Positions 42,742-60,600 of a stretch of 64,000 nt of DNA are shown here, one piece after another. The position numbers and the translations under genes are program-made. The notes beneath the pieces were generated by a model. That model saw nothing but the letters and a program-made list of their open reading frames with translations. It was not told where the DNA came from and searched no databases. The stretch is from Planctomonas psychrotolerans (GTDB lineage: Bacteria > Actinomycetota > Actinomycetes > Actinomycetales > Microbacteriaceae). How positions within the stretch are numbered: position 1 is the first letter of the stretch; every line of letters begins with the position of its first letter. Location of the stretch: positions 1,550,001 to 1,614,000 of the forward strand of contig NZ_SJEV01000001.1 of NCBI RefSeq assembly GCF_008642235.1, given 5' to 3'.

Positions 42742-43458
42742 GTGAGCGAACATAATGCGGTACCCGGGGGACGTGACCGCTCGACGGCGCAGCGACGACG
42801 CGCCCTGATCTGGGGCGGTGTCGCGCTCCTCCTCATCGTTCTCGTCATCGTGGCCATCGTCGCGTCGCTCACCCGCAGGGGAACCCCGGACGACGCGGTG
42901 ACGCCGACGCCGAACGGCACACCCGCGGCGAGTGCGTCGCCAACCCCGAGCCCATCGGAAACGCCCACCGAGGCACCGACACCCGAGGAGACGGCGTCCG
43001 CGGAACCTGCTCCGGAAGCGGAGCAGCCGAACGCCTCCGCCGAGGTCGTGGAGGCCACCGAGGAGAATCCTGCGGCGTTCGATGAGACTTCGGAGGCGGC
43101 CCCGGGCGTCCGCGTCGAGGTGGGAGAACTGACCGCGGTGGAGGGCGAGCCGCGCGGTGCGGGCGAGCTCGCCGGTCCGGCGCTCCGTCTCACGGTCAAT
43201 GTGACGAACACCGGCCCGGAGCCCGCGAATCTCGACTCACTCGTCGTCAACCTCTACTACGGCGAGGATGAGCGTCCCGCGCCGTCCGTGAGCGGTCCGA
43301 ACGTCTTCAACGTTCCGGCCGAGGCCGCCCCTGGCGCCACCGTCACGGGTGCGTACGTCTTCACCGTGCCGGAGGATCAGCGCGACACCGTGCGAGTGGC
43401 CGTCGACTACTCCACCGACGTCGATCTGGTCGTCTTCCAGGGCGCCGCGCCGCGCTGA
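42742..43458 (+). CDS. Membrane-anchored Pro/Thr-rich protein with Ig-like (DUF4352-type) domain
   Basis: A 238-residue protein. The cytosolic start SEHNAVPGGRDRSTAQRRR is followed by a helix at about 21-43 (LIWGGVALLLIVLVIVAIVA), a Pro/Thr/Glu/Ala-rich stalk (TPTPNGTPAASASPTPSPSE), and a C-terminal beta-sandwich with LRLTVNVTNTGPEPANLDSL and GAYVFTVPEDQRDTVRVAVD. This pattern is the DUF4352/telokin-like fold common to actinobacterial surface proteins. Function unknown. GTG start with GCAGGAG ribosome site; TACACT (42668-42673) may be the -10 box. Confidence 0.75.
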   Translation: MSEHNAVPGGRDRSTAQRRRALIWGGVALLLIVLVIVAIVASLTRRGTPDDAVTPTPNGTPAASASPTPSPSETPTEAPTPEETASAEPAPEAEQPNASAEVVEATEENPAAFDETSEAAPGVRVEVGELTAVEGEPRGAGELAGPALRLTVNVTNTGPEPANLDSLVVNLYYGEDERPAPSVSGPNVFNVPAEAAPGATVTGAYVFTVPEDQRDTVRVAVDYSTDVDLVVFQGAAPR

Positions 43459-43601: not shown

Positions 43602-46600
43602 ATGGGCTCACCCACCCTCCTCCCGCACGTCCGCACGCGGTTTCTCGCCGTCGGAACGACGGCCGCACTGATCGCGACGCTGTTCGCCGGCACATCGGTC
43701 GCGGCGGCCGACACCCGGCCCGCTGAGTCGACGACCCCGGCGACCGTGTCGACCGATTCGCTGCCCACGGTGCAGATCGACGGCATCGTGTGGTCGCAGG
43801 TGGTGGTCGGCACCACCGTTTATGCGGGCGGAAGCTTCGCCACGGCCCAGCCGGCGGGTGCGGCCGAGGGCGTGAACACGGTGCCCCGCGCCAACCTGCT
43901 CGCCTACAACATCGAGACGGGCAACCTCATCACCTCGTTCGCGCCGACGCTCAACGGAGAGGTGCGCTCGCTCGCCGTCTCTCCCGACGGCAAGCGAGTC
44001 TACGCGGGTGGAATCTTCACCGAGGTCAACGGCACGAAGCGCAACCGCATCGCCGCGTTCGACACGGCGACCGGGCAGCTCGTGCCGGGCTTCGCTCCGA
44101 GCGCCAACGCCGGCGTGAGCAGCGTCGTCGCCACCAACGACACCGTCTACTTCGGTGGCACCCTGACCTCGGTGAGCGACGTGCAGCGCCCCGGTCGCTC
44201 GGCCGCGGTCAAAGCGCAGGACGGCTCCGTACTCCCGTGGGCACCCGTCGCCGACACCGATGGTCGTGTGACGTCGATGGTCATCTCGCCCGACGGCGCC
44301 AAGCTCGTGCTCGGCGGCAGCTTCGTCTCGATGAACGGATCGGACCGTCCCGGCTACGGCATGGCCGCGGTCGATGCCGTGAACGGCACCACCAACCTCC
44401 CCTGGAACGTGAACAACGTCGTGCGCAACGGCGGGTCCGGCGCGTCGATCACGAGCCTCACCTCCGACGGCACGAGCGTGTACGGCACCGGCTACGTGTT
44501 CAAGGGCGCGGGCAACCTCGAGGGTGCGTTCCGCGCCGATTGGAAGACCGGCGACCTCGTGTGGCTCGAGGACTGCCACGGCGACTCGTACGGCATCCAC
44601 GCCACGAACGGCGTGGCCTACATCGCCGGGCACCCGCACTACTGCGGCAACGTCCACGGCGGATTCCCGCAGACGTCGCCGTGGACCATCTACCGCGGCC
44701 TCGCTTTCACCGACTACGCGACGGGCACGCTCGGTCGCGAACCGCTCGGTTACTTCAACTTCGAGGGCAACCCCTCGCCCTCCCTTCTGCACTTCTACCC
44801 CGAGTTCGACACCGGGGCGGTGTCCGGTGCCAACCAGGGACCGTGGACCGTAACCGGCAGCAACGGCTACCTCCTATACGGCGGCGAGTTCACTCGCGTG
44901 AACAACAAACGTCAGCAGGGGCTCGCGCGCTTCGCCACCACGGCCAAGGCGCCGAACGCCGACGGGCCGCGCGCGCAGGGATCCAACTGGGTGCCGGACG
45001 TGGTGTCGCTCGCGGACGGCTCCGTGCGGGTCGCCTGGCGCGCCAACTACGACCGCGACAACGCGTCGCTCAGCTACCGGCTGATCCGCGACGGCGTCAA
45101 CGCGTCGCCGATCTACACGACCGCGGCGTCGTCGTCGCCGTGGGACCGTCCATCGATGAGCTATCTCGACACCGATGTCGCTCCGGGGGCGACCCACACC
45201 TATCGCGTCCGCGTCGAGGACCCGTTGGGCAACGTGGGCTGGAGCAGCACCGTCACCGCCACCGTGAACGGCAGCGGTCCAATCAGCGACTACGCGAAGG
45301 GCGTCCTCGCCGACCGACCCGAGGCGTACTGGCGTCTTAACGAGACCAGCGGGACCACCGTGTACGACTGGTCGGGCATGAATCCGGCCTACGCGTCCGG
45401 CGGTGTGACCCGCGGTGCCGCTGGGGCGATCGCCAATGACACGAACACCGCGTCCACCTTCTCCGGGGCCACCTGGGGGCTGGCCGCCACCAAGACGATC
45501 CAGCCCGGGCCGAACGACTTCGCGATCGAGGGGTGGTTCAAGACCACCACCACGCGGGGCGGGAAGATCATCGGCTTCGGCAACAAGTTCTCCGGGGAAT
45601 CGAACCAGCACGACCGTCACGTGTACATGGACGATGCCGGACGGGTGTTCTTCGGCGTCAACGACGGCGGCCGCCGCACGCTGAACACCGCCGCCGGCCT
45701 CAACGACGGCCAGTGGCACCACGTCGTGGCAAATCTTGGATCGACCGGGATGCAGCTCTACGTCGACGGCGCGCTCGTGGGGGAGCGGAGCGATGCCGTT
45801 CAAGGCCAGGCCTACAACGGATTCTGGCGGATCGGTGGCGACACCACCTGGGCCGGCACGTCGATGTACTTCGGCGGCGCCATCGACGACGTGGCGATCT
45901 ACCGCTCCGCCCTGACCGCCGACCAGGTGCGGGCCCACTACGCCCTCTCCGGTCGCGACGCCGGCACCACTCCGCCGCCTCCGCCGCCCGCACCCTCCGC
46001 CCTCGCGGCCGACTCCTTCGAGCGGACGGTGGCTTCCGGCCTCGGAGCCGCCGACACCGGCGGCAACTGGACGCTCGGGTCGGCATCGACCAGCTTCTCG
46101 GTCTCCGGCGGCGCAGCCCGACTTGACACCCCGACCGGGTCGACGCGAAGCGCCTACCTCGCGGGGATCACGGCGGTCGACGCCGATGTGCAGGCCGTCG
46201 CCACTCACTCGCGCGTCGTGACCGGCACGGGTGCCTACATCTCGCTCCTCGCCCGCAAGACGTCGGCGGGGGAGTACATCGGCAAGGTGAAGATCCTCGC
46301 CGACGGTGCGGTCAGCATCCAGGTGACCCGCGGGGGAACGAGCCTCGCCTACGCCAACGTGCCCGCGCTCCGGTACGCCCCCGGTGACCGTGTGCGCATG
46401 AGGGTGCAGGCCGTCGGCTCGTCGCCGACCACGGTGCGCGCCAAGGTGTGGGCCGACGGAACAGCGGAGCCCGCCGACTGGCAGGTCACCGCCACCGACT
46501 CGACCGCGGGCCTCCAGCAGGCCGGGTACTCGGGCATCCGCGGGAACCTGAGCTCGGCCGCCACGGCCACGTCGGTGTTCACCTTCGACGACTTCACGCT

Positions 46601-47513
46601 GCGTTCCGCCGGAGCAACCGCCCCGCCCGCCAACGTGGTACCGACGGCATCGATGACCACCTCGGTGGACGGGCTGTCGGTGTCCGCCAACGGGTCGGCG
46701 TCGAAGGACCCCGACGGGTCGATCACGTCGCACGCCTGGACGTTCGGTGATGGTGGCACGGCGACGGGAGCGATCGCGTCGCACACCTATGCAGCAGCAG
46801 GCACGTACACCGTCACCCTCACCGTCACGGACAACGCCGGAGCCACGGCGAAGACCACCAGCGTCGTCGAGGTGGCCGCACCGCCCGCGAGCGCGGTCCT
46901 CGCGTCCGACGCCTTCGAGCGGGTCGCGGTGAACAGCCTCGGCACCGCGGACGCGGGTGGGGCATGGACGCTCGGATCGACCTGGTCCGCGTTCTCCATC
47001 TCGAACGGGGCCGCTCGACTCGAGACGCCCGCGGGTACCGTGCGGAGCGCGTACCTGAAGGACGTGGCATCGGTCAGCACCGACGTGCGCGCCACCGTGA
47101 CGCACGCGCAGGCCGTGACCGGCACCGGGGCGTACGTCTCGCTGATGCCGCGCCGTACAGCCGCGGGTGAGTACGTGGGCAAGGTGAAAATCCTTGGGAG
47201 CGGCGCCGTGAGCATCCAGGTGACCCGCAGCGGCACGAGTCTGCAATACGCGAACGTGCCGGACTTCACCTACGTTCCCGGCGAGAGGATGAACCTCCGA
47301 GTGCAGACCGTCGGTACGTCGCCGACCGTCGTGCGTGCCAAGGTGTGGCGTGATGGCCTCGCCGAGCCGACCGGCTGGCAGGTCAGCGTCACCGACAGCA
47401 CGGCAGGGCTGCAGGAAGCGGGCCACGTCGGTCTTCGCTCCGACGTGAGCTCGGCGGCGTCCGCCTCGTCCACGTTCACGTTCGACGACTTCGTGGCCAG
47501 CACCGCACGCTGA
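43602..47513 (+). CDS. Giant secreted surface protein A: propeller-like head, Fn3, LamG, PKD, two C-terminal domains
   Basis: A 1303-residue exported protein. Signal peptide to about residue 36. A beta-propeller-like head (about 50-450) has repeats such as VYAGGIFTEVNGTKRNRIAA and YFGGTLTSVSDVQRPG, and the block EDCHGDSYGIHATNG plus AGHPHYCGNVHGG. An Fn3-like module lies at about 465-555, LamG jellyroll at 558-786 (YWRLNETSGTTVYDW ... FWRIGGDTTW), the ~205-residue domain at 800-1003, a PKD at 1007-1092 (AWTFGDGGTATGAIASHTYA), and the ~205-residue domain again at 1096-1303. No wall-sorting motif is seen. The start ATG is preceded by CAGGCACAC, shared with gene C. Probably carbohydrate-binding or adhesive; enzymatic activity unproven. 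Confidence 0.85.
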   Translation: MGSPTLLPHVRTRFLAVGTTAALIATLFAGTSVAAADTRPAESTTPATVSTDSLPTVQIDGIVWSQVVVGTTVYAGGSFATAQPAGAAEGVNTVPRANLLAYNIETGNLITSFAPTLNGEVRSLAVSPDGKRVYAGGIFTEVNGTKRNRIAAFDTATGQLVPGFAPSANAGVSSVVATNDTVYFGGTLTSVSDVQRPGRSAAVKAQDGSVLPWAPVADTDGRVTSMVISPDGAKLVLGGSFVSMNGSDRPGYGMAAVDAVNGTTNLPWNVNNVVRNGGSGASITSLTSDGTSVYGTGYVFKGAGNLEGAFRADWKTGDLVWLEDCHGDSYGIHATNGVAYIAGHPHYCGNVHGGFPQTSPWTIYRGLAFTDYATGTLGREPLGYFNFEGNPSPSLLHFYPEFDTGAVSGANQGPWTVTGSNGYLLYGGEFTRVNNKRQQGLARFATTAKAPNADGPRAQGSNWVPDVVSLADGSVRVAWRANYDRDNASLSYRLIRDGVNASPIYTTAASSSPWDRPSMSYLDTDVAPGATHTYRVRVEDPLGNVGWSSTVTATVNGSGPISDYAKGVLADRPEAYWRLNETSGTTVYDWSGMNPAYASGGVTRGAAGAIANDTNTASTFSGATWGLAATKTIQPGPNDFAIEGWFKTTTTRGGKIIGFGNKFSGESNQHDRHVYMDDAGRVFFGVNDGGRRTLNTAAGLNDGQWHHVVANLGSTGMQLYVDGALVGERSDAVQGQAYNGFWRIGGDTTWAGTSMYFGGAIDDVAIYRSALTADQVRAHYALSGRDAGTTPPPPPPAPSALAADSFERTVASGLGAADTGGNWTLGSASTSFSVSGGAARLDTPTGSTRSAYLAGITAVDADVQAVATHSRVVTGTGAYISLLARKTSAGEYIGKVKILADGAVSIQVTRGGTSLAYANVPALRYAPGDRVRMRVQAVGSSPTTVRAKVWADGTAEPADWQVTATDSTAGLQQAGYSGIRGNLSSAATATSVFTFDDFTLRSAGATAPPANVVPTASMTTSVDGLSVSANGSASKDPDGSITSHAWTFGDGGTATGAIASHTYAAAGTYTVTLTVTDNAGATAKTTSVVEVAAPPASAVLASDAFERVAVNSLGTADAGGAWTLGSTWSAFSISNGAARLETPAGTVRSAYLKDVASVSTDVRATVTHAQAVTGTGAYVSLMPRRTAAGEYVGKVKILGSGAVSIQVTRSGTSLQYANVPDFTYVPGERMNLRVQTVGTSPTVVRAKVWRDGLAEPTGWQVSVTDSTAGLQEAGHVGLRSDVSSAASASSTFTFDDFVASTAR

Positions 47514-47563
47514 GGTCGTGCGTTGAGAAACCGACCGTGCCGCCCGGAATAACGGGAGGGTAA

Positions 47564-47607
47564 CAGTTCTGCGCGGACCGGGTGGCTCCCGGCCCGCGCG
47601 ATACCAT
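47564..47607 (+). promoter_or_regulatory. Bipartite upstream element of giant surface gene B
   Basis: CAGTTCTG and GATACCAT separated by exactly 28 bp, as upstream of gene A. The intervening 28 bp are not conserved, so the two octamers were retained selectively. Confidence 0.5.
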
Positions 47608-47702
47608 CAAGACTTCGGTGACCGCTCGATCGCCGACGACGTAATACCCGACGTCGACCCGTCCGCATTCCCCCACGGAATCAAGCAGAGCTGAGCATCA
47701 CC

Positions 47703-50700
47703 ATGGGCACAGTCGCCACCGGTCCGACACGTTCAAGACGACTTCTCGGCGGTGCGTTGGCTGCGCTCCTCGCCGCCTGCATGCTGGTGGCGCCGGCCGG
47801 CGCCTCGGCCGACACGCGACCGCCGTCCGGGACTCCCGCGACGGTGTCCTCGGACTCTCTTCCGACGGTGCAGATCAACGGCATCGTCTGGTCGCAGGTG
47901 ATCGTCGGGAACACGGTCTACGCGGGGGGCAGTTTCAGCACCGCCCAGCCGGCGGGAGCCGCAGCGGGAGTCAATACGGTCGCCCGCGGCAACCTCCTCG
48001 CCTACCGGCTCGACACCGGGGCGCTGATCACCTCGTTCGCCCCCATGCTGAACGGGCAGGTGCGCGGTCTCGCCGCCTCTCCCGACGGATCCCGGGTGTA
48101 CGCCGTCGGTGAGTTCACCTCCGTGAGCGGGACCACCCGCAATCGCATCGCGGCATTCTCCACGGCGACCGGCGCGCTGGTCCCATCGTTCGCGCCCAGC
48201 GCGAACGCTCGGGTCAGCAGCGTCGCCGCCACCAACAGCACCGTCTACTTCGGCGGCACGCTGACCTCGGTGAGCGGCGTGTCCCGTCCGGGCCGGGCGG
48301 CAGCCGTGTCGGCGAGCACCGGTGCGGTGCAGCAGTGGGCTCCGCGCGCAAACACCGAGGGTCGAGTCGGTGCCATGACCATCAACCCCGACGGCACCAA
48401 GCTCGTCCTCGGCGGCAACTTCACGACGATGAACGGCTCGAGCAACCCCGGTTACGGGCTTGCGGCAGTAGACTCCATCACCGGTGCCAGCCTTCCGTGG
48501 AGCGTGAACTCGATCATCCGCAACGCCGGTCCCGACGCGGCGATCACCAACCTCTCGTCCGACGGCACCAGCGTCTACGGCACCGGATACGTGTTCGGGG
48601 GCGGAGGCAACTTCGAGGGCGCGTTCCGCGCCGACTGGAGCGATGGCCGGCTGGTGTGGATGGAGGACTGTCACGGCGATTCCTATTCCGTTCACACGGT
48701 GCGCGACGTCACCTACGTCGCCGGGCACCCGCACTACTGCGGAAACGTCAACGGGGGCTTCGAGCAGACCGCGCCGTGGAGCTTCTACCGCGGCATCGCC
48801 GTCACGAACTACGCAACCGGGGTGCTGGAACGCGAACCGCACGGGTACTTCAACTTCGAGGGACGCCCGTCCCCGACCCTGCTGCACTTCTACCCGGCGT
48901 TCAACACCGGCTCGGTGTCCGGAGCGAGTCAGGGACCCTGGAGCGTGACCGGCTCGGGGAACTACGTGGTCTTCGGCGGTGAGTTCACCACCGTCAACGG
49001 CAATCGCCAGCAGGGCCTCGCCCGCTTCACCACCGCCGCCGGCGCGCCGAACGATGACGGGCCTCGGCTCAGCGGATCCAACTGGGTGCCGAACGTCGTG
49101 TCGCTCGCGCAGGACTCCGTGAGGGTCGGCTGGCGGGCCAACTTCGATCGGGACAACGCGATGCTGTCGTACCGCGTCATCCGCGACGGCGCCACCTCCT
49201 CGCCGATCCACGAGGTGCAGGCCTCTTCCGCCCCGTGGGATCGACCCTCGATGAGTTACCTCGACACCGGAGTGCGCAACGGGGAGACCCACACCTATCG
49301 TCTCCGGGTGGAGGACCCGTTCGGCAACGTGGCCTGGAGCAACACCGTGAGCGTCACGGTGAACGGATCCGGCACCGTGAGTTCGTACGCGTCCCGGGTT
49401 CTCGCCGACCGCCCCGAGTCGTATTGGCGCCTCGGCGAGGGATCCGGGACCACCGTGTACGACTGGGCGGGGTACACCAACGCGGCGGCATCCTCCGGGG
49501 TGACCCGTGGCACGTCGGGCGCGATCGTGAATGACGCCAACCGCGCCTCGACGTTCTCCGGCACCAGTTCGGGCTTCGTCTCGACCGGTGGCGCGGTGGA
49601 GCCCACGACGAACAGCTTCGCTCTGGAGGCGTGGTTCCGGACGACCACAACGTCGGGCGGCAAGATCGTGGGCTACGGGAACTCCTCGACCGGCAGCTCC
49701 ACCACCTACGACCGGCATATCTACATGGACAACACCGGGCGCGTCTTCTTCGGCGTGCATCCCGGGTCCCAGCGCACCCTCAGCACGGCGGCCGGGCTGA
49801 ACGACGGACAGTGGCATCACGTCGTGGCGAACCTCGGGCCCACCGGCATGCAGTTGCACCTCGACGGCGTCAGGGTGGCCCAGCGGACCGACACGACCAC
49901 GGGCCAGGCATACAACGGGTACTGGCGCATCGGCGGTGACACCTCGTGGGCCGGCACGTCGGGGTACTTCCGGGGCGACATCGACGACGTCGCGGTCTAT
50001 CGCGCCGCCCTGTCCGACAGCCAGGTCGCCGCCCACTGGTCACTATCGGGTCGTTCCGGTTCCACACCGCCGCCACCGCCTCCGCCCGACCCGCAGGTGC
50101 TCGCGTCCGACCGGTTCGACCGGTCCGTGACCGGAGGCCTCGGCACAGCCGATGCCGGCGGCGCCTGGACCCTCGGGTCGTCCGCCTCGAGCTATTCGGT
50201 ATCCGGTGGTATCGCGCGGTTATCGACGCCGCCCGGCGCCGTCCGCAGCGGATACCTGCAGAACGTCTCGGCCATCGGCAGCGACGTGCGTGCGACCGTG
50301 TCGATGCTGCAGCCCGCCACCGGGGGCGGGTCCTATCTCTCCCTTCTCGCCCGGAAGAACGCGGCGGGGGAGTACATCGGCAAGGTCAAGGTGTTGTCGA
50401 CAGGAGCGGTCAGCATCCAGGTCACCCGGGGCGGCACGAGCCTTCACTACGCGAGCGTTCCCGGCATCCGCTATACGACGGGCGATCGGCTCATGATCCG
50501 CGTGCAGGCGGTGGGATCGGCGCCCACCACGATCCGGGCGAAGGTGTGGGCGCAGGGCACGACGGAGCCCGCCGGTTGGCAGGTCAGTGCGACCGATTCC
50601 ACGGCGGGCCTGCAGCAGGCCGGATACGTAGGGTTGCGTGGAGATCAGACCTCCACGTCGACCGGGACCGTCGTGTTCGCCTTCGACGATTTCGTTGCCG

Positions 50701-50711
50701 TTCGCGGGTGA
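47703..50711 (+). CDS. Giant secreted surface protein B: propeller-like head, Fn3, LamG, one C-terminal domain
   Basis: The shortest of the three paralogues, 1002 residues. The signal peptide LLGGALAALLAACMLVAPAG ends near residue 38. Then come the propeller-like head, with MEDCHGDSYSVHTVRDVTYV and AGHPHYCGNVNGG conserved, the Fn3-like module, one LamG (about 558-785; YWRLGEGSGTTVYDWAGYTN), a short Pro linker and one ~205-residue domain (VLASDRFDRSVTGGLGTADA ... VFAFDDFVAVRG). PKD modules are absent, so this may be the ancestral layout or a reduced copy. CysMet in the signal (AACML) is not a convincing lipobox. Confidence 0.85.
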   Translation: MGTVATGPTRSRRLLGGALAALLAACMLVAPAGASADTRPPSGTPATVSSDSLPTVQINGIVWSQVIVGNTVYAGGSFSTAQPAGAAAGVNTVARGNLLAYRLDTGALITSFAPMLNGQVRGLAASPDGSRVYAVGEFTSVSGTTRNRIAAFSTATGALVPSFAPSANARVSSVAATNSTVYFGGTLTSVSGVSRPGRAAAVSASTGAVQQWAPRANTEGRVGAMTINPDGTKLVLGGNFTTMNGSSNPGYGLAAVDSITGASLPWSVNSIIRNAGPDAAITNLSSDGTSVYGTGYVFGGGGNFEGAFRADWSDGRLVWMEDCHGDSYSVHTVRDVTYVAGHPHYCGNVNGGFEQTAPWSFYRGIAVTNYATGVLEREPHGYFNFEGRPSPTLLHFYPAFNTGSVSGASQGPWSVTGSGNYVVFGGEFTTVNGNRQQGLARFTTAAGAPNDDGPRLSGSNWVPNVVSLAQDSVRVGWRANFDRDNAMLSYRVIRDGATSSPIHEVQASSAPWDRPSMSYLDTGVRNGETHTYRLRVEDPFGNVAWSNTVSVTVNGSGTVSSYASRVLADRPESYWRLGEGSGTTVYDWAGYTNAAASSGVTRGTSGAIVNDANRASTFSGTSSGFVSTGGAVEPTTNSFALEAWFRTTTTSGGKIVGYGNSSTGSSTTYDRHIYMDNTGRVFFGVHPGSQRTLSTAAGLNDGQWHHVVANLGPTGMQLHLDGVRVAQRTDTTTGQAYNGYWRIGGDTSWAGTSGYFRGDIDDVAVYRAALSDSQVAAHWSLSGRSGSTPPPPPPPDPQVLASDRFDRSVTGGLGTADAGGAWTLGSSASSYSVSGGIARLSTPPGAVRSGYLQNVSAIGSDVRATVSMLQPATGGGSYLSLLARKNAAGEYIGKVKVLSTGAVSIQVTRGGTSLHYASVPGIRYTTGDRLMIRVQAVGSAPTTIRAKVWAQGTTEPAGWQVSATDSTAGLQQAGYVGLRGDQTSTSTGTVVFAFDDFVAVRG

Positions 50712-50841
50712 ACCGGCCCGAACCTGTCAATGTGCTGTGCGTTTAGCAAACGAAAGCCGGGGGTGCCCGGCAGCCCGTAGGGTGACCGTACCCGCCGGTG
50801 ATCCCCCGTCACCATTCCCCCGAAAGTACAGGCACACCTTC

Positions 50842-53800
50842 ATGGGCTTACCCACCCCAGTTCCTTTCGCGCGCAAGAAAACAATCGTCGCCTTCGGCCT
50901 CGCTACCGCGCTCATCGCGTCGCTGTTCACCGGAACCATGGCCGCCTCGGCTGACACATCCCCGGTGCCGCCGCTCCCCGCCACGGTATCGACGGACTCG
51001 CTGCCCACCGTGCAGATCGACGGCATCGTCTGGTCTCAGGTCATCGTCGGCAACACCGTCTACGCGGGCGGCAGCTTCACCACCGCCCGCCCGGCCGGCG
51101 CTGCGGCCGGCGCCTCGACGGTTCCCCGGGCGAACCTGCTCGCCTACAACCTCACGACGGGTGCGCTCGTCACCTCGTTCGCGCCGACCCTCAATGGTCA
51201 GGTGCGTTCGCTGGCCGCCTCTCCGGATGGTTCCCGCCTGTACGCGGCCGGCGAGTTCACCACGGTGAACGGCGTCAGCCGCAACCGCATCGCCGCCTTC
51301 AGCACCGCCACGGGCGCGCTCGTGACGTCGTTCGCGCCGAGCGCGAACTCCCGGGTGAGCGCCGTCGTCGCCACGAACGACACCGTCTACTTCGGCGGCA
51401 CGATGAGCGCCGTCAGCGGGGTGTCCCGTCCTGGCCGTTCGGCGGCCGTATCGGCCTCGAACGGCGCGGTGCTGCCCTGGGCACCTCTCGCCAACCCCGA
51501 CGGCCGGGTCCTGGCCATGGTGCTCTCGCCCGATAACTCCAAGCTCGTGCTCGGCGGCAGCTTCACGACCATGAACGGGTCGAGCAACCCCGGCTACGGG
51601 CTCGCCTCCGTCGACGCGATCACCGGCGCGAACCTTCCCTGGAACGTCAACAGCGTCGTCCGCAACGGCGGCCCCGACGCGTCGATCACGAGCCTCACGT
51701 CCGACGGCACCAGCGTCCACGGCACCGGGTACGTGTTCGGGTCCGGGGGCAACCTCGAGGGCGCTTTCCGGGCCGACTGGAAGAACGGCGACCTCGTCTG
51801 GCTCGAAGACTGCCACGGTGACAGCTACTCCGCCTACGCCACGGGCGACGTCGCCTACGTCGCGGGACACCCCCACTACTGCGGCAACGTCAACGGCGGC
51901 TTCGAGCAGACCGAACCGTGGACGTTCTACCGCGGTGTCGCCTTCACCAACTACGCGACCGGCACCCTGAAGCGCGAGAAGCACGGATACTTCAACTTCG
52001 AGGGCAACCCTTCGCCCACGCTGCTGCACTTCTACCCCACCTTCAACACCGGAACCGTTTCCGGCGCCAGCCAGGGCCCCTGGAGCGTGACGGGGAACGG
52101 CAAGTACGTCGTATTCGCGGGTGAATTCACCACGGTCAACGGGACGCGCCAGCAGGGACTCTCCCGCTTCGTCGTCGCCGACTCCGCCCCGAACGCCGAC
52201 GGTCCGCGCGTGAGCGGCTCCAACTGGGTGCCGTCGGTGGTCTCGCTGTCCGCCGGCACCGCGCGCGTGGCGTGGCCCGCGAACTTCGACCGCGACAATA
52301 CTTCCCTGACCTACCGGGTCATCCGGAACGGCAACACCGGGTCGCCGGTGCACGAGATCGTGGGCGAGTCGTCGCCATGGAACCGACCGGCCATGGGCTA
52401 CCTCGACACCGGACTTGTGCCGGGGGAGACCTACACCTATCGCCTCCGCGCCGAGGATCCCTTCGGCAACGTGGCTTGGAGCAACACGGTGCCGGTGACG
52501 ATTGCCGCGGAGGGTACTTCCAGCGCGTACGCATCCGGCGTGCTGGACGATGCGCCGACCTCGTACTGGCGCCTGGGTGAAGCGAGCGGCCTAGCGGTCT
52601 ACGACTGGGCAGGCTTCGATGACGCCGTAGCCGGCGCCGGGGTGACCCGGGGAACCGCCGGAGCGATCGGCGGCGACGACAACTCGTCCGCCACGTTCTC
52701 GGGCACGAACACCGGGCTCGTCGCCAGCCAGGTGGCGCAGCCGGGCAGCAACAGCTTCGCCATCGAAAGCTGGGTGCGCACCACGAGCACCGCCGGAGGC
52801 AAGATCGTCGGCTTCGGCAACGCGAAGACCGGTAACTCGTCGAGCTACGACCGTCACGTTTACATGGACGGGGCCGGACGCATTATCTTCGGCGTGTACC
52901 CGAATGCCGAGCGCACGGTGAGCAGCGGGACCGGCTTCAACGACGGCAACTGGCACCACATCGTCGCGAACCTCGGCCCGATCGGCATGCAGCTGTTCGT
53001 GGACGGCAAGCGCGTCGCCCAGCGGACCGACACGACGAGCGCCCAGGCCTACGACGGCTACTGGCGCATCGGCGGCGACTCCTCGTGGGGCGGCACCGCG
53101 CCGTACTTCGCCGGGGACATCGACGACGTCGCCATCTACGGCAACGCCCTCAGCACCGCGCAGGTCGATCGCCACTACACGCTGTCGGGTCGGCCGTCCG
53201 CCCTCCCCAAGGCGCCCTCCGACGCCTACGGTGCGCGGGTCTTCGCCGACGACCCCGACCTCTACTGGCGTCTCGACGACTCCTCCGGATCGATCGCCGC
53301 GGATGCAAGCCCCTCGGGCACTCCGGGCACCTACATCGGCGGAGTCACGAAGCAGCAGGAGGGCGTCCTTCAGGGCAACGCATCCGCGGCCTTCGACGGC
53401 TCCAGCGGGCATGTCGTCAGCTCCAGGCAGGTCAGCGGCCCGCAGGTCTACTCGACCGAGCTCTGGTTCTCCTCCACCTCCCAGCAGGGCGGCAAGCTGA
53501 TCGGATTCGGCAACGCATCCTCCGGCACATCGGGCAACTACGACCGTCACGTCTACCTGCAGCCCGACGGGCGCCTCGTATTCGGGATCTGGAACGGGAC
53601 CGCCAACATCATCACCTCTCCCGCCGCCTACAACGACGGACGCTGGCACCACGTAGTCGCCACCCAGGCGGCGAATGGTCTGCGTCTGTACGTGGACGGG
53701 GAGCTCCTCGGCACTCATCCGGCCAATCGTTCGGACAGTTACGCCGGTTACTGGCGCATCGGTGGGGACAACACCTGGGGTTCCAGCCCGTTCGTCAACG

Positions 53801-55992
53801 CCCGCATCGATGAGGCGGCCGTGTACAGCACCGCCCTCAGCGCGGAGCAGGTGCGTGCGCACTACGCGCTCGCCAGCGGTGTGCCGGTGAATGCAGCCCC
53901 CACGGCATCGTTCACCAGTTCCGTGAACGAGCTCGCCGCGAGCTTCGACGCGTCCGCCTCATCGGACTCGGACGGCACCATCGCGTCCTACGCCTGGTCC
54001 TTCGGCGACGGTCGCACCGGCACCGGTGCTCGAGCGAGCCACACCTACGCCGAGGCGGGCACCTACCGGGTGTCCCTCACGGTCACGGACGACGACGGCG
54101 CCACCGCGGTGTCCACGTCGACGGTCACGGTCGCCGTGACCCCGGTCCCCAATGCGGCCCCGGTCGCATCCTTCACGAGTGCGGTGAACGAACTCGCGGT
54201 GAGCGTGGACGGTTCCGGCTCGACGGACTCGGACGGCACGATTGCGTCCTACGCCTGGTCCTTCGGTGACGGAGGTACGGCCACCGGTGCGACGGCGTCG
54301 CACACCTATGCGGCGGCCGGCACCTACACGGTGACCTTGACGGTGACGGACGACGACGGTGCCACGGCGACCCGGACCAGCACGGTCACGGTGACCGCTC
54401 CGGCTGCACCGCCCGCGACCGGTCCGCTGGCGTCGGATGCCTTCGCCCGCAGCGCCACAGGCAACTGGGGCAGTGCGGACACCGGGGGTGCGTGGACGAA
54501 CAGCAGCGGCACCTCGTCCTACTACTCCGTCGCGAACGGCGTCGGACGGCACACCACATCCACAGCGGGCCGTACGATCGAGAACTACCTGCCGGGGGTC
54601 ACGAGCACCGACTCCGATGTGCGTGCCACCTTCGCGATCACTCCGATGAACGTCGGCGGAAGCGTCTTCGCGTCCGTCATCGGTCGTCGCGTCGGGTCGG
54701 AGGACTACCGCACCCGTGCCGTCATCGCACCGAATGGATCGATCTCGCTCCGGATTTTCCGCGGGGGGACGACGCTCGACAGCCGCACCGTCAGCGGGGT
54801 GACTTACTCGGCCGGTGATCGGATGCGCCTGCGCATCGAAACCACCGGGACCTCGCCCACCACCATCCGGGCGAAGATCTGGAAGGTCGGCACTCCCGAG
54901 CCCACCACCTGGCAGGTCGAAACCACCGACAGCACGGCGGCCCTCCAGACCGCCGGTCACACCGGAGTCAGCTCCTACATCGGCTCCGGCATGACCAGCC
55001 TCCCCCTGACCGTCAGCTGGGACGACTTCACGGCCACCACGGCGGGGAGCACCCCCGCCGAAGAGCCGGGAACCGAAGAGCCGGCTCCCGTTCCGAATGC
55101 GGCTCCCGTGGGTCGGTTCACGTCTTCGGTCGACGGCCTGACCGCGAACGTCGACGCATCGGCGTCGTCGGATGCCGACGGCACGATCGCGTCGTACGCG
55201 TGGAACTTCGGCGACGGAGGTACCGGTACCGGCGCGACCGCGTCACGGACCTACGCGGCTGCTGGCACGTACACGGTGACGTTGACGGTGACCGATGATG
55301 ACGGTGCGACGGCGACGCGGACCGGAACGGTCACGGTGGCCGCGCCGACCGCCCCGCCCGCCGGTGTCCTGGCGGCGGACGCCTTCGCCCGCACCGCCAC
55401 GGTCACCTGGGGCAGCGCGGACACCGGTGGCGCCTGGACGAACAGCAGCAGCACCTCGTCCTACTACTCCGTCGCCAACGGTGTAGGACGGCACACCACC
55501 AGCACCGCGGGTCGCACGATCGAGAACTACCTGCCCGGCGTCACCAGCACCGACACCGACGTGCAGGCGACCTTCGCGATCACCCCGATGAACGTCGGCG
55601 GCAGCGTCTTCGCGTCCGTCATCGGTCGCCGGGTCGGAACCGTCGACTACCGCACCCGCGCGGTCGTGGCAGCGAACGGATCCATCACCCTCCGCATCTA
55701 CAGCGGCGGCACCACCCTGGACTCGACCACCGTCAGCGGACTCACCTACGCCGCCGGCGATCAGATGCGCCTGCGCATCCAGACCACCGGGACCTCGCCC
55801 ACCACCATCCGGGCGAAGATCTGGAAGGTCGGCACCACCGAGCCCACCACCTGGCAGGTGCAGGCCACGGACGGCACGGCGGCCCTCCAGACCGCCGGTC
55901 ACACCGGAGTCAGCTCCTACATCGGCTCCGGCATGACCAGCCTCCCCCTGACCGTCAGCTGGGACGACTTCACCGTCACCCCCATCCAGTAA
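50842..55992 (+). CDS. Giant secreted surface protein C: propeller-like head, two LamG, three PKD, two C-terminal domains
   Basis: The largest paralogue, 1716 residues. Signal peptide to about residue 37 (TMAASADTS). The propeller-like head with LEDCHGDSYSAYATGDVAYV and AGHPHYCGN is followed by an Fn3-like module, LamG1 (about 558-782), LamG2 (792-1012, more diverged), PKD1 (1016-1099) and PKD2 (1103-1185), a type-2 form of the ~205-residue domain (1191-1400), PKD3 (1416-1502) and a second type-2 copy (1507-1716). The two type-2 copies share 53- and 100-bp identical DNA runs. The leader from -10 to ATG aligns with that of gene A. No anchor motif is visible, so retention on the cell would require carbohydrate binding. 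Confidence 0.86.
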   Translation: MGLPTPVPFARKKTIVAFGLATALIASLFTGTMAASADTSPVPPLPATVSTDSLPTVQIDGIVWSQVIVGNTVYAGGSFTTARPAGAAAGASTVPRANLLAYNLTTGALVTSFAPTLNGQVRSLAASPDGSRLYAAGEFTTVNGVSRNRIAAFSTATGALVTSFAPSANSRVSAVVATNDTVYFGGTMSAVSGVSRPGRSAAVSASNGAVLPWAPLANPDGRVLAMVLSPDNSKLVLGGSFTTMNGSSNPGYGLASVDAITGANLPWNVNSVVRNGGPDASITSLTSDGTSVHGTGYVFGSGGNLEGAFRADWKNGDLVWLEDCHGDSYSAYATGDVAYVAGHPHYCGNVNGGFEQTEPWTFYRGVAFTNYATGTLKREKHGYFNFEGNPSPTLLHFYPTFNTGTVSGASQGPWSVTGNGKYVVFAGEFTTVNGTRQQGLSRFVVADSAPNADGPRVSGSNWVPSVVSLSAGTARVAWPANFDRDNTSLTYRVIRNGNTGSPVHEIVGESSPWNRPAMGYLDTGLVPGETYTYRLRAEDPFGNVAWSNTVPVTIAAEGTSSAYASGVLDDAPTSYWRLGEASGLAVYDWAGFDDAVAGAGVTRGTAGAIGGDDNSSATFSGTNTGLVASQVAQPGSNSFAIESWVRTTSTAGGKIVGFGNAKTGNSSSYDRHVYMDGAGRIIFGVYPNAERTVSSGTGFNDGNWHHIVANLGPIGMQLFVDGKRVAQRTDTTSAQAYDGYWRIGGDSSWGGTAPYFAGDIDDVAIYGNALSTAQVDRHYTLSGRPSALPKAPSDAYGARVFADDPDLYWRLDDSSGSIAADASPSGTPGTYIGGVTKQQEGVLQGNASAAFDGSSGHVVSSRQVSGPQVYSTELWFSSTSQQGGKLIGFGNASSGTSGNYDRHVYLQPDGRLVFGIWNGTANIITSPAAYNDGRWHHVVATQAANGLRLYVDGELLGTHPANRSDSYAGYWRIGGDNTWGSSPFVNARIDEAAVYSTALSAEQVRAHYALASGVPVNAAPTASFTSSVNELAASFDASASSDSDGTIASYAWSFGDGRTGTGARASHTYAEAGTYRVSLTVTDDDGATAVSTSTVTVAVTPVPNAAPVASFTSAVNELAVSVDGSGSTDSDGTIASYAWSFGDGGTATGATASHTYAAAGTYTVTLTVTDDDGATATRTSTVTVTAPAAPPATGPLASDAFARSATGNWGSADTGGAWTNSSGTSSYYSVANGVGRHTTSTAGRTIENYLPGVTSTDSDVRATFAITPMNVGGSVFASVIGRRVGSEDYRTRAVIAPNGSISLRIFRGGTTLDSRTVSGVTYSAGDRMRLRIETTGTSPTTIRAKIWKVGTPEPTTWQVETTDSTAALQTAGHTGVSSYIGSGMTSLPLTVSWDDFTATTAGSTPAEEPGTEEPAPVPNAAPVGRFTSSVDGLTANVDASASSDADGTIASYAWNFGDGGTGTGATASRTYAAAGTYTVTLTVTDDDGATATRTGTVTVAAPTAPPAGVLAADAFARTATVTWGSADTGGAWTNSSSTSSYYSVANGVGRHTTSTAGRTIENYLPGVTSTDTDVQATFAITPMNVGGSVFASVIGRRVGTVDYRTRAVVAANGSITLRIYSGGTTLDSTTVSGLTYAAGDQMRLRIQTTGTSPTTIRAKIWKVGTTEPTTWQVQATDGTAALQTAGHTGVSSYIGSGMTSLPLTVSWDDFTVTPIQ
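54932..55031 (+). repeat. 100-bp perfect repeat, copy 1
   Basis: Identical to 55874-55973, 942 bp downstream, inside the paired type-2 C-terminal domains of gene C. A 53-bp identical run (54841-54893 and 55783-55835) keeps the same offset. Suggests recent duplication or gene conversion. Confidence 0.95.
55874..55973 (+). repeat. 100-bp perfect repeat, copy 2
   Basis: Second copy of the repeat at 54932-55031. It covers the end of the domain, from the STAALQTAGHTG-like segment through SWDDFT. Confidence 0.95.
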
Positions 55993-56050: not shown

Positions 56051-56126
56051 CCTGGTGTCATCGGCCGTTCGGCGCGTTGCCACGCGATAGTGTTCGATTG
56101 CGGAACACGGGGGAAAGGTGTGCGCT

Positions 56127-57071
56127 ATGGATTTCACGAGCACGAAAAAGCAGGTCGTCGTCGCCGTTCTCACCTATCGCAGGCCGGACGACCTGGACGA
56201 GGTGGTACCGCTCCTGCTGCAGGAGATCGAGGCGACGGGCCCGTTGGCCGAGTGCCGGCTCCTCATCGTCGATAACGACCCGGCTGGGGGCGCCCGTGAC
56301 CAGGTGCGGGGCATGCCGGGCGCTGAGCACATCGGCTACGCGCATGAGGCGGCGCCGGGGATCGCCGCCGCACGCAATCGCGCGCTGGCCGAAGCGGCCG
56401 CAGCGGACTACCTCGTGTTCATCGACGACGACGAGCGACCGACCCGGGGCTGGTTGATCGCCCTCCTCACGAGTGCGACGTCGACCGGCGCAACCGCGGT
56501 CGCCGGACCGGTGATCTCCACCTTCGCCGCCCAGCCTGACGCGTGGGTCGCCTCCGGGAGCTTCTTCGACCGTCGACGCCTGCCTACGGGTACCGCGGTG
56601 TCTCTCGTGGCCACCAATAACCTGATCCTCGACGTGCACCAGTTGACCGCCTTCGGTATCCGTTTCGACGAGCGCTTCGGCCTGAGCGGAGGGTCGGACA
56701 CCATGCTGAGCTTGCGCATAGCTCAGCACGGCGGAACCATGCTGTGGAACGACGACGCCATCGTGCACGACGTCGTACCCGCCAAACGGCTCACCCGCGA
56801 ATGGGTGCTGCAGCGCGCGCGACGGATGGGCAATTCCTGGGCTGTCACCACGCTTGCAGCCGCTCCCTCGCGCACCGCCCGCACCCAGCTGCGCGTCCAG
56901 CACGTGTTCCGCGGACTGGTGCGCTTCAGTGGCGGCGGCGCTCGTTACGTGGGAGGCCTCGTGACCGGCAGAATGTCGGAACGGGCTCGCGGACTTCGCA
57001 CTCTCGCCCGGGGAGCCGGCCTTCTCGCCGGCGCGGCCGGTGTGACCTATTCGGAATACAACAGGAAGTGA
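56127..57071 (+). CDS. Glycosyltransferase family 2
   Basis: A 314-residue inverting GT-A glycosyltransferase. KKQVVVAVLTYRRPDDLDEV starts the Rossmann-like fold, PGIAAARNRALAEAAAADYL and VFIDDDERPTRGW supply the nucleotide/metal site (DDD at about 100-102), and LSGGSDTMLSLRIAQHGG matches the ED-like acceptor region. No membrane helices are needed for activity; the C-terminal Arg-rich helix may attach to the membrane. ATG with GAAAGG eight bases upstream; GATAGT (56086) is the probable -10 box. It starts a three-gene operon. Confidence 0.88.
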   Translation: MDFTSTKKQVVVAVLTYRRPDDLDEVVPLLLQEIEATGPLAECRLLIVDNDPAGGARDQVRGMPGAEHIGYAHEAAPGIAAARNRALAEAAAADYLVFIDDDERPTRGWLIALLTSATSTGATAVAGPVISTFAAQPDAWVASGSFFDRRRLPTGTAVSLVATNNLILDVHQLTAFGIRFDERFGLSGGSDTMLSLRIAQHGGTMLWNDDAIVHDVVPAKRLTREWVLQRARRMGNSWAVTTLAAAPSRTARTQLRVQHVFRGLVRFSGGGARYVGGLVTGRMSERARGLRTLARGAGLLAGAAGVTYSEYNRK

Positions 57072-57077
57072 GAACGC

Positions 57078-57881
57078 ATGACGGACGAAACAGGGGGTGA
57101 GCGGGTGACCAGGACCACGCGACCCGTCGTCGAGAACACGGCGACGCCGCGCACCTACTCTGCAGCCGTGCGTTCGCTCGCGTCCTCGCAGAAATCGTCG
57201 AAGGGCGCTCCCGCTTACTCGCGGTACGTCAACCGCCCGCTCGGCCGTCGCTTCGCCGCACTGGCCTACGTGCTGCGACTCACGCCGAACATGGTCACGT
57301 CGGTGAGCGCGCTCGTCACCTTCGCCGGCATCGCCATGATCGCCCTGCTTCCGCCTACGCCGCTCTTCGCCGTGCTGACGAGCGTGCTGCTCATTCTCGG
57401 CTACGCGCTCGACTCGGCAGACGGACAACTCGCCCGGCTGCGCGGTGGGGGGAGCATGGTCGGTGAGTGGCTCGACCACATCGTCGACGCGATCAAGTCG
57501 AGCGCGCTGCACGCCGCGGTGCTGATCGGCTGGTTCCGATTCCTCGACCTCGACCCCGTCTGGTTGCTCGTACCGCTGGGGTACACGATCGTCTCCGCCG
57601 TCTTCTTCTTCGGGATGATCCTCACCGACCAGCTGCGCCGACTCAACCGCGGGTCGTCGGCCATGATCCTGAAGCACGACGGGCGCACCTCCCTCGCCTA
57701 CTCCCTCGCTGTCATCCCCGCCGACTACGGACTGCTGTGCCTCGTCTTCCTGTTCGCCTGGATCAGCCCCTTCTTCGTGGGCCTCTACACGGCGCTCTTC
57801 GTCGCCAACGCGCTCATCCTCGCGGCCTCCCTCGTGCGCTGGTTCCGGGCGGTCTCCCGCCTCGGCCAGGGTGCCGCATGA
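57078..57881 (+). CDS. CDP-alcohol phosphatidyltransferase family membrane enzyme
   Basis: A 267-residue integral membrane enzyme. The complete signature D112-x2-D115-G116-x2-A119-R120-x8-G129-x3-D133-x3-D137 (starting DSADGQLARLRG) is present, so it should transfer a phospho-alcohol from a CDP-alcohol to an acceptor hydroxyl with loss of CMP. Six membrane helices follow the pattern of the family. The N-terminal ~70 residues are polar. Its location between a glycosyltransferase and an acyltransferase, rather than among lipid genes, suggests a role in a glycolipid or phospho-glycopolymer; the substrate is unknown. Its stop overlaps the next start (ATGA). Confidence 0.9.
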   Translation: MTDETGGERVTRTTRPVVENTATPRTYSAAVRSLASSQKSSKGAPAYSRYVNRPLGRRFAALAYVLRLTPNMVTSVSALVTFAGIAMIALLPPTPLFAVLTSVLLILGYALDSADGQLARLRGGGSMVGEWLDHIVDAIKSSALHAAVLIGWFRFLDLDPVWLLVPLGYTIVSAVFFFGMILTDQLRRLNRGSSAMILKHDGRTSLAYSLAVIPADYGLLCLVFLFAWISPFFVGLYTALFVANALILAASLVRWFRAVSRLGQGAA

Positions 57882-58543
57882 GCCGTTTCTCCGGCCTCGA
57901 GTCGCCTCGGGCCGGTATTGCCGCCGACGTCGGCTTCGTGCGCCGCGTCGTTCCCATGTTCCTTCGCGGGCTCCTTCGCAAGCCGCTGCTGGGAAAGAGC
58001 GCTGGGCCGTTGTTCGTGGGACGGAATGCGCGTCTCTCGAACCTCGGCCGTATCCGCCACGATGGCAGGCTCGTGATCGAGGACGGTGCCGAAGTGCAGG
58101 GCTTGGCCAGGCGGGGCCTCCGATTCGGCAGCGATGTGTCTATCGGACCCGGTTCGATGATCCGCCCGTCGAGCTACTACGGCGGAGAGGTCGGCGAGGG
58201 ACTCCTCATGGGCGACCGCTCGAGCACGGGCGCGAACTGCTTCATCGGCTGCTCCGGACGCATCGAGATCGGAAATGACGTGATGCTCGGCCCGGGGGTG
58301 CGCATCTTCTCCGAGAATCACGCGTTCGAGGACACCGCGGCGTCGATCAAGAGCCAGGGAGTCGTCCGGGGCACGGTGGTGATCGGCGATGACTGCTGGA
58401 TCGCCAGCGGCGCCACCATCACCGCCAATGTCACCATCGGCCGCGGCGTCGTGGTGGCGGCAGGAAGTGTGGTGACGAGCGACGTGCCCGACAACGCTGT
58501 GGTCGCCGGCATCCCCGCGAAGATCCTGCGTTACCGCGCCTGA
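57878..58543 (+). CDS. Hexapeptide-repeat acyltransferase
   Basis: A 221-residue left-handed beta-helix acyltransferase. Hexapeptide turns are visible in VGRNARLSNLGRIRHDGRLV, IGPGSMIRPSSYYG, IEIGNDVMLGPGVRIFSEN (catalytic-type His in SENHAFEDT) and VIGDDCWIASGATITANVTI, ending with the usual AGIPAKILRYR. It resembles the maltose/galactoside/serine acetyltransferases that decorate sugars. Coupled by ATGA to the phosphatidyltransferase gene, it probably O-acetylates the same polymer or a sugar donor. The donor is most likely acetyl-CoA. Confidence 0.9.
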   Translation: MSRFSGLESPRAGIAADVGFVRRVVPMFLRGLLRKPLLGKSAGPLFVGRNARLSNLGRIRHDGRLVIEDGAEVQGLARRGLRFGSDVSIGPGSMIRPSSYYGGEVGEGLLMGDRSSTGANCFIGCSGRIEIGNDVMLGPGVRIFSENHAFEDTAASIKSQGVVRGTVVIGDDCWIASGATITANVTIGRGVVVAAGSVVTSDVPDNAVVAGIPAKILRYRA

Positions 58544-58600: not shown

Positions 58601-59950
58601 TCAGACGGGCGGCGTCTCGCTGACGTGCCGAGCGCGCCGTTGCGGAACCGGGAGGAGGGCGAGGCCCACCCCGAGGATCAGCGGAAGCGACGATGTGTAG
58701 ATGGTGTTGAAGCCGAGATTCCACAGCGTGATGACCGAGAGGAATAGAACGAGACCGGTCGCACTCGCGTTGGACAGCGACACCGAGAGGTAACGGATCA
58801 GGATTACGGCGATGTAAATGGCGAGGGCGAGGCCGAGTACCCCGCAGATGGCCCACAGGTCACCGGTCACCGAGTGCAGTTCGATCTTGCTTCCGAACAT
58901 GAAGTTCTCGACGTATCCGTTGTCGGGGTCGTACGCCAGCTCCGTCATTCCGATCTTCGCCTGCAGGATGTCGTTGGCGTTGGCCAGAGTTCCCGCGCCG
59001 TAACCCCACAGTTTCGTCGTCATCAGGGCCACGGTCGCGGCGAACTCGGGACGCCCACCGAGGAGCACGGAACCGGCGCGGTCGAACTGCTCCTGCGATC
59101 GGGCCTGGGATTCCGGGCCGAGCACACCGGCCAGAAGCAGCATGGTGCCTGCTTGGTACACGATGACCGCGACCAGCACGAAAAGACCGAAGGTGGCCTT
59201 GGCGGTCAGGCGCTTCGAGTGGGCCGACGCGACGATGGCGCCGAGGATGAGGGTAGCGGCGAGGAGGAGGTCAGCGAAGAAGGCGCGGGAGTCCTGAAGC
59301 GCGGACGCGATCGCCAGCGCGAGGAGCACGATGATCTGCAGCACCCGACGGTGGGCCCGTGCGACGATCGACAGGGCGACGATCGCGATCGGCACACCCA
59401 CGAAGAACTTCCACGGGTTCTCCGACGACAGGGCCGAGTTGGTGAGGGCCGTCACGAGCATGCCGAGACCGAACGACAGCCCGATGACGCGCACGGAGAG
59501 GAAGGCGCGTGCCCACAGTACGACGCCGACGCCGCACACCGTGCCCAGCACGAGAAAGGTGTTGGTGAACGTGTTGCGCGCGGAGATCTCATGGTCGACG
59601 GAGGAGAACTCGGTCAGCACCAATCCGGCGACGGTCGCGGCGATGCCCAGGGCGATGAACCCGCGGGCCCCGCTGTACTGCTTCAGCACGGGCACCCAGA
59701 CGGGAATGAGGGCGAATGACAGCAGGTAACCGAAGCTCAGGCCTTCGACCAGCTCTTCGCGAGCTCCGAGAAGGTAGAGCGTGATGACCGCGACTGCGGG
59801 CGCGAGCCACTCACGGGTAGTGTAATCCAGCCACTTCCCGGGACCCACCGGCTCCGCGACGTGCGAGCGCGTGCGGGTGCGTTCCGCCGCCTGGCTTCGG
59901 TCGGCCGGGTCGGCGTCGTCGATGCCCGTCAGTGCGTCGAGCTGAGTCAT
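58601..59950 (-). CDS. O-antigen polymerase/ligase-like membrane protein (Wzy/WaaL type)
   Basis: A 449-residue polytopic protein. After a polar N-terminal 45 residues come about 11-12 membrane helices, with a large external loop near residues 280-350 (DRAGSVLLGGRPEFAATVAL, LTAKATFGLFV before it, and YDPDNGYVENFMFGSKIELH). A long polar loop between late helices is the general shape of Wzy polymerases and WaaL ligases, which vary greatly in sequence. In this locus, polymerization of an exopolysaccharide repeat unit is the likely role. The start overlaps the end of the Wzz-like gene (ATGA). Confidence 0.8.
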   Translation of the reverse strand: MTQLDALTGIDDADPADRSQAAERTRTRSHVAEPVGPGKWLDYTTREWLAPAVAVITLYLLGAREELVEGLSFGYLLSFALIPVWVPVLKQYSGARGFIALGIAATVAGLVLTEFSSVDHEISARNTFTNTFLVLGTVCGVGVVLWARAFLSVRVIGLSFGLGMLVTALTNSALSSENPWKFFVGVPIAIVALSIVARAHRRVLQIIVLLALAIASALQDSRAFFADLLLAATLILGAIVASAHSKRLTAKATFGLFVLVAVIVYQAGTMLLLAGVLGPESQARSQEQFDRAGSVLLGGRPEFAATVALMTTKLWGYGAGTLANANDILQAKIGMTELAYDPDNGYVENFMFGSKIELHSVTGDLWAICGVLGLALAIYIAVILIRYLSVSLSNASATGLVLFLSVITLWNLGFNTIYTSSLPLILGVGLALLPVPQRRARHVSETPPV

Positions 59951-60600
59951 GGCGTGCGGACGACGCGCTGCTCGTGCCGCAGTCGTGCTGCGCGGCTGCG
60001 GTCGAGTGCGTCACGGCTGAGCGCGTAAGCGACGCCGGCGATGAGACCGAGGAAGACTCCGACGGCGACGTAGTTGCGCGTGACCGGAGCGATGGGGAAG
60101 CGCGGCTCGGGGCCGGCGGCGAGGAGGCGAACCTCCACCCGTGCCGCTCCCTCTTCGGCGCTGGTCGGCGAGAAACGCTCGATCGCCGTTTTGAGCGTGC
60201 TGGTCAGCTCGTCGGCGATCTGCACCGACTGTTCGGCCGTGCCGGCCGTGACGGAGACGTTGACCACCATGGTGTTGAGCGGGTTCTCCGCGGTGACGCG
60301 GTCGGCCAGGTCCGTCGGGGTCGTGTCGAGGCCGAGCTCGCGGATCACCGGGTTCAGCACCTCCGGAGTGGTCACGAGCTGGGTGTACGTGGGCATCAGG
60401 TTGCGGGTGTAGGTCGAGCCTTGAGCGAGCTCTCCAGCGTCGCCGCCGCCGGTCAGGGCGACCAGTACGCTGCTCGATCCCCGATACGTGTCGGGGGTGA
60501 GCTGGGCGATCCCCCAACCGGCGATGCCGCCGATGACGGCCAGAAGGCCGACGGCGATCCACCGCGTGAGAACGACACGGACGTAGTCATAGAGCTTCAA
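59947..60600 (-). CDS. Wzz-like chain-length determinant / capsular polysaccharide protein
   Basis: A 217-residue protein with two membrane helices (WIAVGLLAVIGGIAGWGIAQ near 14-33, and VAVGVFLGLIAGVAYALSRD near 175-195) enclosing an extracytoplasmic coiled part (YTQLVTTPEVLNPVIRELGL, NPLNTMVVNVSVTAGTAEQS). This is the polysaccharide co-polymerase/Wzz domain without a fused tyrosine kinase; the C-terminus is short and basic. TTG is the start, with AAAGG seven bases upstream; it is the first gene of the minus-strand Wzz-Wzy pair. Confidence 0.88.
   Translation of the reverse strand: MKLYDYVRVVLTRWIAVGLLAVIGGIAGWGIAQLTPDTYRGSSSVLVALTGGGDAGELAQGSTYTRNLMPTYTQLVTTPEVLNPVIRELGLDTTPTDLADRVTAENPLNTMVVNVSVTAGTAEQSVQIADELTSTLKTAIERFSPTSAEEGAARVEVRLLAAGPEPRFPIAPVTRNYVAVGVFLGLIAGVAYALSRDALDRSRAARLRHEQRVVRTP

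Follow-up and report, generated by a model that had tools for sequence, protein, structure and literature searches.

Three consecutive genes of Planctomonas psychrotolerans, here A, B, and C, code for large proteins with a common propeller-like head and differing tails, and these proteins are probably (at a rough probability of 0.6) secreted, unanchored structural proteins or lectins of the exopolysaccharide (EPS) matrix of the organism itself. The linkage to EPS genes, the combination of a propeller with a variable string of lectin-fold modules, and the lack of an anchor make this the best explanation. Secretion would follow from the signal-like N-termini, which were read by eye. The genes lie in the window, i.e., the whole stretch of 64,000 nucleotides that was analyzed, in a genome of 3.29 Mb in two contigs. 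All three are on the forward strand, with 189 nt between A and B and 130 nt between B and C. The start of A is placed at the ATG in position 43602, where the first codons are like those of C, within a reading frame open from 43530.

Table. Features of the three-gene array and of the surrounding locus (positions in the window, except in the last row)
Feature	Position	Strand	Basis or remark
Right-handed β-helix proteins (by reading), two in tandem	40734-41669, 41715-42647	+	No Pfam match
DUF4352-like protein	42742..43458	+	Directly upstream of A; one N-terminal membrane-spanning stretch (by eye)
Paralogue A, 1303 aa	43602..47513	+	Signal-like N-terminus, predicted propeller head, Fn3-like, LamG, d1, PKD, d1
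A head + Fn3-like	43743..45272	+	Module models
A LamG (Laminin_G_3)	45504..45929	+	Pfam, protein E 2.2e-25
A first d1, predicted ConA-like lectin fold	45999..46610	+	Module models
A PKD	46641..46868	+	Pfam
A second d1	46896..47507	+	63% identical to A first d1
Paralogue B, 1002 aa	47703..50711	+	Head, Fn3-like, LamG, d1
B head + Fn3-like	47841..49367	+	Module models; structure predicted for this copy
B LamG (Laminin_G_3)	49572..50030	+	Pfam, E 2.6e-22
B d1	50097..50708	+	Copy used for structure prediction
Paralogue C, 1716 aa	50842..55992	+	Head, Fn3-like, LamG, LamG, PKD, PKD, d2, PKD, d2
C head + Fn3-like	50983..52509	+	Module models
C first LamG	roughly 52520-53185	+	Pfam and module models
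C second LamG	53395..53853	+	Pfam and module models
C PKD1 + PKD2	53890..54393	+	Pfam; likely recombination seam in the PKD2 region
C first d2	54424..55044	+	Module models
C PKD3	55090..55347	+	Pfam
C second d2	55366..55986	+	87% identical to C first d2
GT2 glycosyltransferase	56118..57071	+	Profile match
CDP-alcohol phosphatidyltransferase	57078..57881	+	Profile match
Hexapeptide acyltransferase	57878..58543	+	Profile match
Putative polytopic Wzy-like polymerase	58601..59950	-	By eye, no Pfam match; kept in related loci
Wzz-like chain-length determinant	59947..60600	-	E 3e-5, just short of cut-off
Wzx-type flippase (Polysacc_synt_3)	61870..63333	-	Profile match
WbaP-type transferase	L016:947-2581		Beyond the Wzx gene

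With H for the head, F for the Fn3-like module, L for LamG, P for PKD, and d for the tail domain, home-made module models read A as H-F-L-d1-P-d1, B as H-F-L-d1, and C as H-F-L-L-P-P-d2-P-d2. Pfam and these models bear out the initial annotation, made from the sequence alone, which had given the three proteins a common signal-like N-terminus, head, Fn3-like module, and LamG, followed by different tails. LamG scores 80–150 bits in A, B, and C against a Pfam cut-off of 27.6 (in C with E = 6e-44 across two stretches), and PKD is likewise above its cut-off, with one copy in A (80 bits) and three in C (231 bits in total), E reaching 6e-28. Fn3 is matched faintly (fn3, E = 0.03, in C). Over the aligned region, the heads of A and C are, respectively, 73% and 76% identical to that of B. 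A PADLOC scan of B gave no match. The tail of C had been thought to carry domains of a second type; these are a diverged form but not a separate kind, since a joint alignment puts d1 and d2 in one family, with about 42% identity, and the notion of two kinds of tail domain was discarded.

AF2 modeled the head and Fn3-like module of B with a pLDDT of 96, the head being a predicted β-propeller, and the Foldseek matches of this model in the PDB are propellers, generic ones at the top. The propeller-like character first read from the sequence is thus upheld by structure prediction. When a profile of the head was compared with PDB sequences, there were no meaningful relatives. Similarity with the Rax2 (PF12768) and DUF5122 (PF17164) propellers is weak and confined to short stretches; Rax2, a polarity protein of fungi, reaches 29.0 bits in the head of C (cut-off 28.8) and stays below the cut-off in A and B, and the head of the Actinomyces oris member has 42 bits for DUF5122 and 29.4 bits for Rax2. 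Six residues, W284, C288, H307, H309, C311, and R406, are invariant in all 54 aligned heads (numbered along the first row of the head alignment, which begins at B residue 36). They include a CxG...HxHxC pattern, which may correspond to a disulfide and a metal or catalytic site.

The tail domain of about 205 residues is present as originally described and can now be given a predicted fold. The structure prediction for its copy in B (pLDDT 98) gives a jelly-roll β-sandwich of the concanavalin A (ConA)/LamG-like lectin type. Foldseek gave 176 PDB matches at E ≤ 0.001, of which the best 50 are mostly lectins, GH16, CBM66, and relatives, the best structures being legume lectins, GH16 glucanases, and CBM66. 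The LamG modules are members of the ConA-like lectin/glucanase superfamily by Pfam; the d domain is alike in fold by prediction and Foldseek. Because its query-normalized TM-scores are 0.43–0.62, and profile searches found neither a Pfam match nor a meaningful PDB sequence relative, it is apparently a distant, unnamed branch of this superfamily. Elsewhere in the genome, the d domain occurs in a GH88-type hydrolase, two metallophosphoesterases, and two β-helix-like proteins. Such association with enzymes and β-helix proteins is typical of a binding module, and d would fit a portable one. The PKD modules are probably spacers between modules. They match by profile those of collagenases and cellulases (e.g., ColH), but a catalytic domain of the peptidase or cellulase kind is not among the Pfam matches of A, B, and C. 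Another case of local module exchange was observed at L013:1746-8671 (G000:C1, about 712.7–719.7 kb), where an Ala-Pro repeat linker in each of three adjoining genes leads into a near-identical C-terminal region; the N-terminal parts differ, one being cell-wall-binding-repeat-like and two having d domains.

Downstream of C, a GT1 gene falls between the Wzz-like and Wzx genes. The DUF4352-like match of the protein coded upstream of A is below the cut-off (E = 5e-5 and 24.0 bits versus 25.9 in the window; 19.4 bits in P. deserti). In P. deserti and Naasia, homologues of both β-helix-like genes likewise adjoin the array. Many EPS loci of Microbacterium and Frondihabitans have instead, near the head gene, a β-helix protein of about 900 residues with a d domain. 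The position beside EPS genes, already pointed out for this array, is kept far past this genome. In at least 30 of the 43 genomes having the head, a WbaP-type transferase gene (PF02397) is no more than 20 kb from a head gene, against a slightly low expectation of 1.2, and these counts come from loci that are phylogenetically related and not fully independent, but spread over 28 genera; the maximum in 200,000 simulation runs was eight genomes. Among the remaining 13 genomes, several have the head gene next to other EPS genes or at a contig edge, and homologues of Wzy, Wzz, GT2, and CDP-OH are found in most other head loci. A count by hand puts a DUF4352-like gene immediately upstream of the head gene at 30 of 36 EPS-type loci and at none of four off-cluster ones (hypergeometric probability about 0.002). 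Where PF02397 is near, the head genes are longer (median open frame of 1644 versus 1123 aa, p = 2e-6), and the EPS-near gene is the longer one in nine of the ten genomes having both kinds. Linkage is not obligatory, as off-cluster head genes exist in this genome (paralogue D, see following), P. deserti (2), and Frondihabitans.

Of 150 Microbacteriaceae genomes from 78 genera, 43 (in 28 genera) have the head, which also occurs in Micrococcaceae, Geodermatophilaceae, and Actinomycetaceae; Clavibacter and Actinomyces are examples of plant- or host-associated genera with members. Hence, the family is not lineage-specific, as had been supposed. Tandem sets of two or three head genes make up 13 clusters in the 150-genome survey of Microbacteriaceae, and architectures range from the head and Fn3 alone in A. 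oris (L074) to a dozen modules in Naasia (L065). The P. deserti array reads H-F-d1, H-F-L-L-P-d1, and H-F-L-L-P-P-P-P-d1-P-d1. Comparison across relatives shows module orders that vary in Planctomonas and are rather stable in Microbacterium; the orders are neither fixed nor unlinked to polysaccharide genes, the two conditions that had been named in advance as speaking against local module expansion. In one locus (L093, G011:C1, about 203–208 kb), the head, LamG-PKD-d, and a terminal d are in consecutive separate ORFs, reflecting a split gene or frameshift errors. None of the 54 full-length homologues has an LPxTG motif or a C-terminal hydrophobic stretch, which ruled out sortase or membrane anchoring. 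The family is apparently undescribed, as it did not turn up in searches of the open literature on LamG, PKD, or DUF4352 in connection with exopolysaccharide or with Clavibacter, Microbacterium, and Microbacteriaceae in general.

By the head domain, P. deserti is the nearest named relative (72% across this domain). A single clade (100/99) of the head tree unites A, B, and C with the three genes of the P. deserti array, so that, on this tree, the array is an expansion within the Planctomonas clade. A genome of the same genus (G001) has a very different pair, and the array is thus not established as genus-wide. The fourth, unlinked paralogue D (G000:C2:411854-414928, L009:11854-14928) runs off the contig end; its partner in the tree is a copy of P. 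deserti that is likewise unlinked, and both fall within a Naasia clade. A fragment at C1:1-162 (L014) matches the end of a D-type tail and was taken as the end of D. The PKD/d2 repeats of D, 82–92% identical to those of C, probably broke the assembly. Close to D, L009:680-4921 codes for a protein of 1413 residues in which one can recognize by eye an AMP-binding (NRPS-like) adenylation domain and a carrier, as well as membrane and hexapeptide-acyltransferase-like regions.

Judged by its identities with these genes, C is a chimera, in which the part from the head to the second LamG comes from the array and the d domains of the tail from the unlinked paralogue. The former part is mostly 60–86% identical to the third gene of the P. 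deserti array and less so to D-type genes, whereas the last d domain is 36–61% identical to that array gene and 74–88% to the D-type gene, the switch being in or near the PKD2 repeat. The d2 pair of C groups with the second d domain of the P. deserti D-type gene (100/100), and a separate clade (99/98) holds the d domains of A and B together with those of the P. deserti array. A tree with all array d domains forced into one clade loses 68.5 log units (p-AU 0.0007, a nominal value because the clade was chosen after the identities had been inspected), and with this rejection, module gain of local origin only was ruled out for C. The C1:1-162 fragment is 90–92% identical in DNA to the tail of C; the heads of D and C are about 65% identical. 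Among these few genomes, the exchange is more simply read as a transfer from D to C. Within C, a PKD-d2 unit of 897 nt occurs twice, with 83% nucleotide identity. In A (63%), as in the third gene of the P. deserti array (72%), the sibling d domains pair with each other, and internal duplications thus seem to have occurred independently. The proposal that the family grows by modules therefore holds for gain and swap between close relatives, as in the orders of the P. deserti array, but not for local gain alone, given the tail of C.

As for function, we infer that the head with its Fn3-like collar is the constant part and would bind the EPS of the adjoining Wzx/Wzy cluster, or else the export site, and that the membrane-bound DUF4352-like protein coded upstream may be its partner. 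The tails, made of ConA-fold lectin-like modules (LamG and d) with PKD spacing, would give each paralogue its own reach and specificity, and the set would act as several double-sided tapes between the EPS and other glycan surfaces. Tails would diversify through unequal exchange or conversion at the PKD-d repeats, including with the unlinked paralogue. The folds make the adhesin or glycan-binding role of the initial annotation plausible. On the other side, ConA/LamG folds may bind proteins or be inert, PKD is perhaps a spacer only, the top Foldseek matches of the head are generic propellers, and its invariant Cys and His residues are compatible with an enzyme. Because of these residues, an enzymatic head is the main rival: it would process the EPS (e.g., as a propeller-type lyase or hydrolase), and the LamG/d/PKD tail would target the substrate, much as in large secreted glycoside hydrolases with targeting modules. 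No part of the proteins is more conserved than the head, the same d module is joined to GH88 and phosphoesterases in this genome, and EPS clusters often hold the gene for their own depolymerase. We nevertheless find an enzyme rather unlikely, since Pfam and PDB profile searches found no catalytic family match in the head, the Foldseek matches listed for it are mostly noncatalytic propellers with one GH74, C288 and C311 may form a mere disulfide, and three paralogues with divergent tails suit binding diversity better than a single activity.

If A, B, and C instead bound mainly foreign surfaces or cells (plant, soil, or competitor glycans), the EPS neighborhood would reflect shared regulation. 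It is indeed the tails that vary, there are repeated cases of tandem arrays and of tail swaps, and plant- or host-associated genera have members. Yet the linkage is specific to EPS loci over many genera, with a recurrent DUF4352-like gene upstream, and the longest tails belong to the EPS-linked copies, which makes this an improbable account; what it says of the tails, which may face foreign glycans, is compatible with a matrix role. Very improbable, finally, is that the proteins are parts of EPS assembly or export, the DUF4352-like protein and the head sitting at the Wzx/Wzy exit and, for example, attaching EPS to the cell. One would then understand why the order of the DUF4352-like and head genes is kept beside Wzy, Wzz, and WbaP in several actinobacterial families and why the minimal member is a head with Fn3 alone. 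The head proteins have no membrane anchor or known export domain, PF02397 is in at least 111 of the 150 Microbacteriaceae genomes and the head in 43, so that many EPS producers lack the family, and the tails would be left without explanation.

The preferred reading, secreted lectins of the EPS matrix, has a parallel in Vibrio cholerae, where the propeller shared by Bap1 and RbmC binds Vibrio polysaccharide directly and divergent modules bind surfaces (PMC10102183). In both cases, there are secreted paralogues with a conserved β-propeller, differing glycan- or surface-binding modules, and a proposed role between the own EPS and other surfaces. The tails differ, LamG/ConA/PKD modules standing in A, B, and C where Bap1 and RbmC have β-prism or mucin-binding modules, and so does the phylum. 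The head has no kinship with Bap1 or RbmC in a PDB profile search at E ≤ 0.1, and these are not among its best 50 Foldseek matches; the likeness would thus be functional only, in the sense of working like them, not of membership.

More tentatively, the family could represent a widespread actinobacterial EPS-matrix system, composed of a DUF4352-like membrane protein and a secreted, propeller-headed multi-lectin, which would be an independent Gram-positive counterpart of Bap1/RbmC with tails shuffled at PKD repeats. If so, lectin tails would be shuffled between paralogues much like in cassette exchange. The chimeric tail of C is a clear example of an exchange of putative binding modules between such proteins. 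Little is known of matrix or adhesion proteins in these actinobacteria, and this EPS-linked, lectin-like family provides concrete candidates for them.
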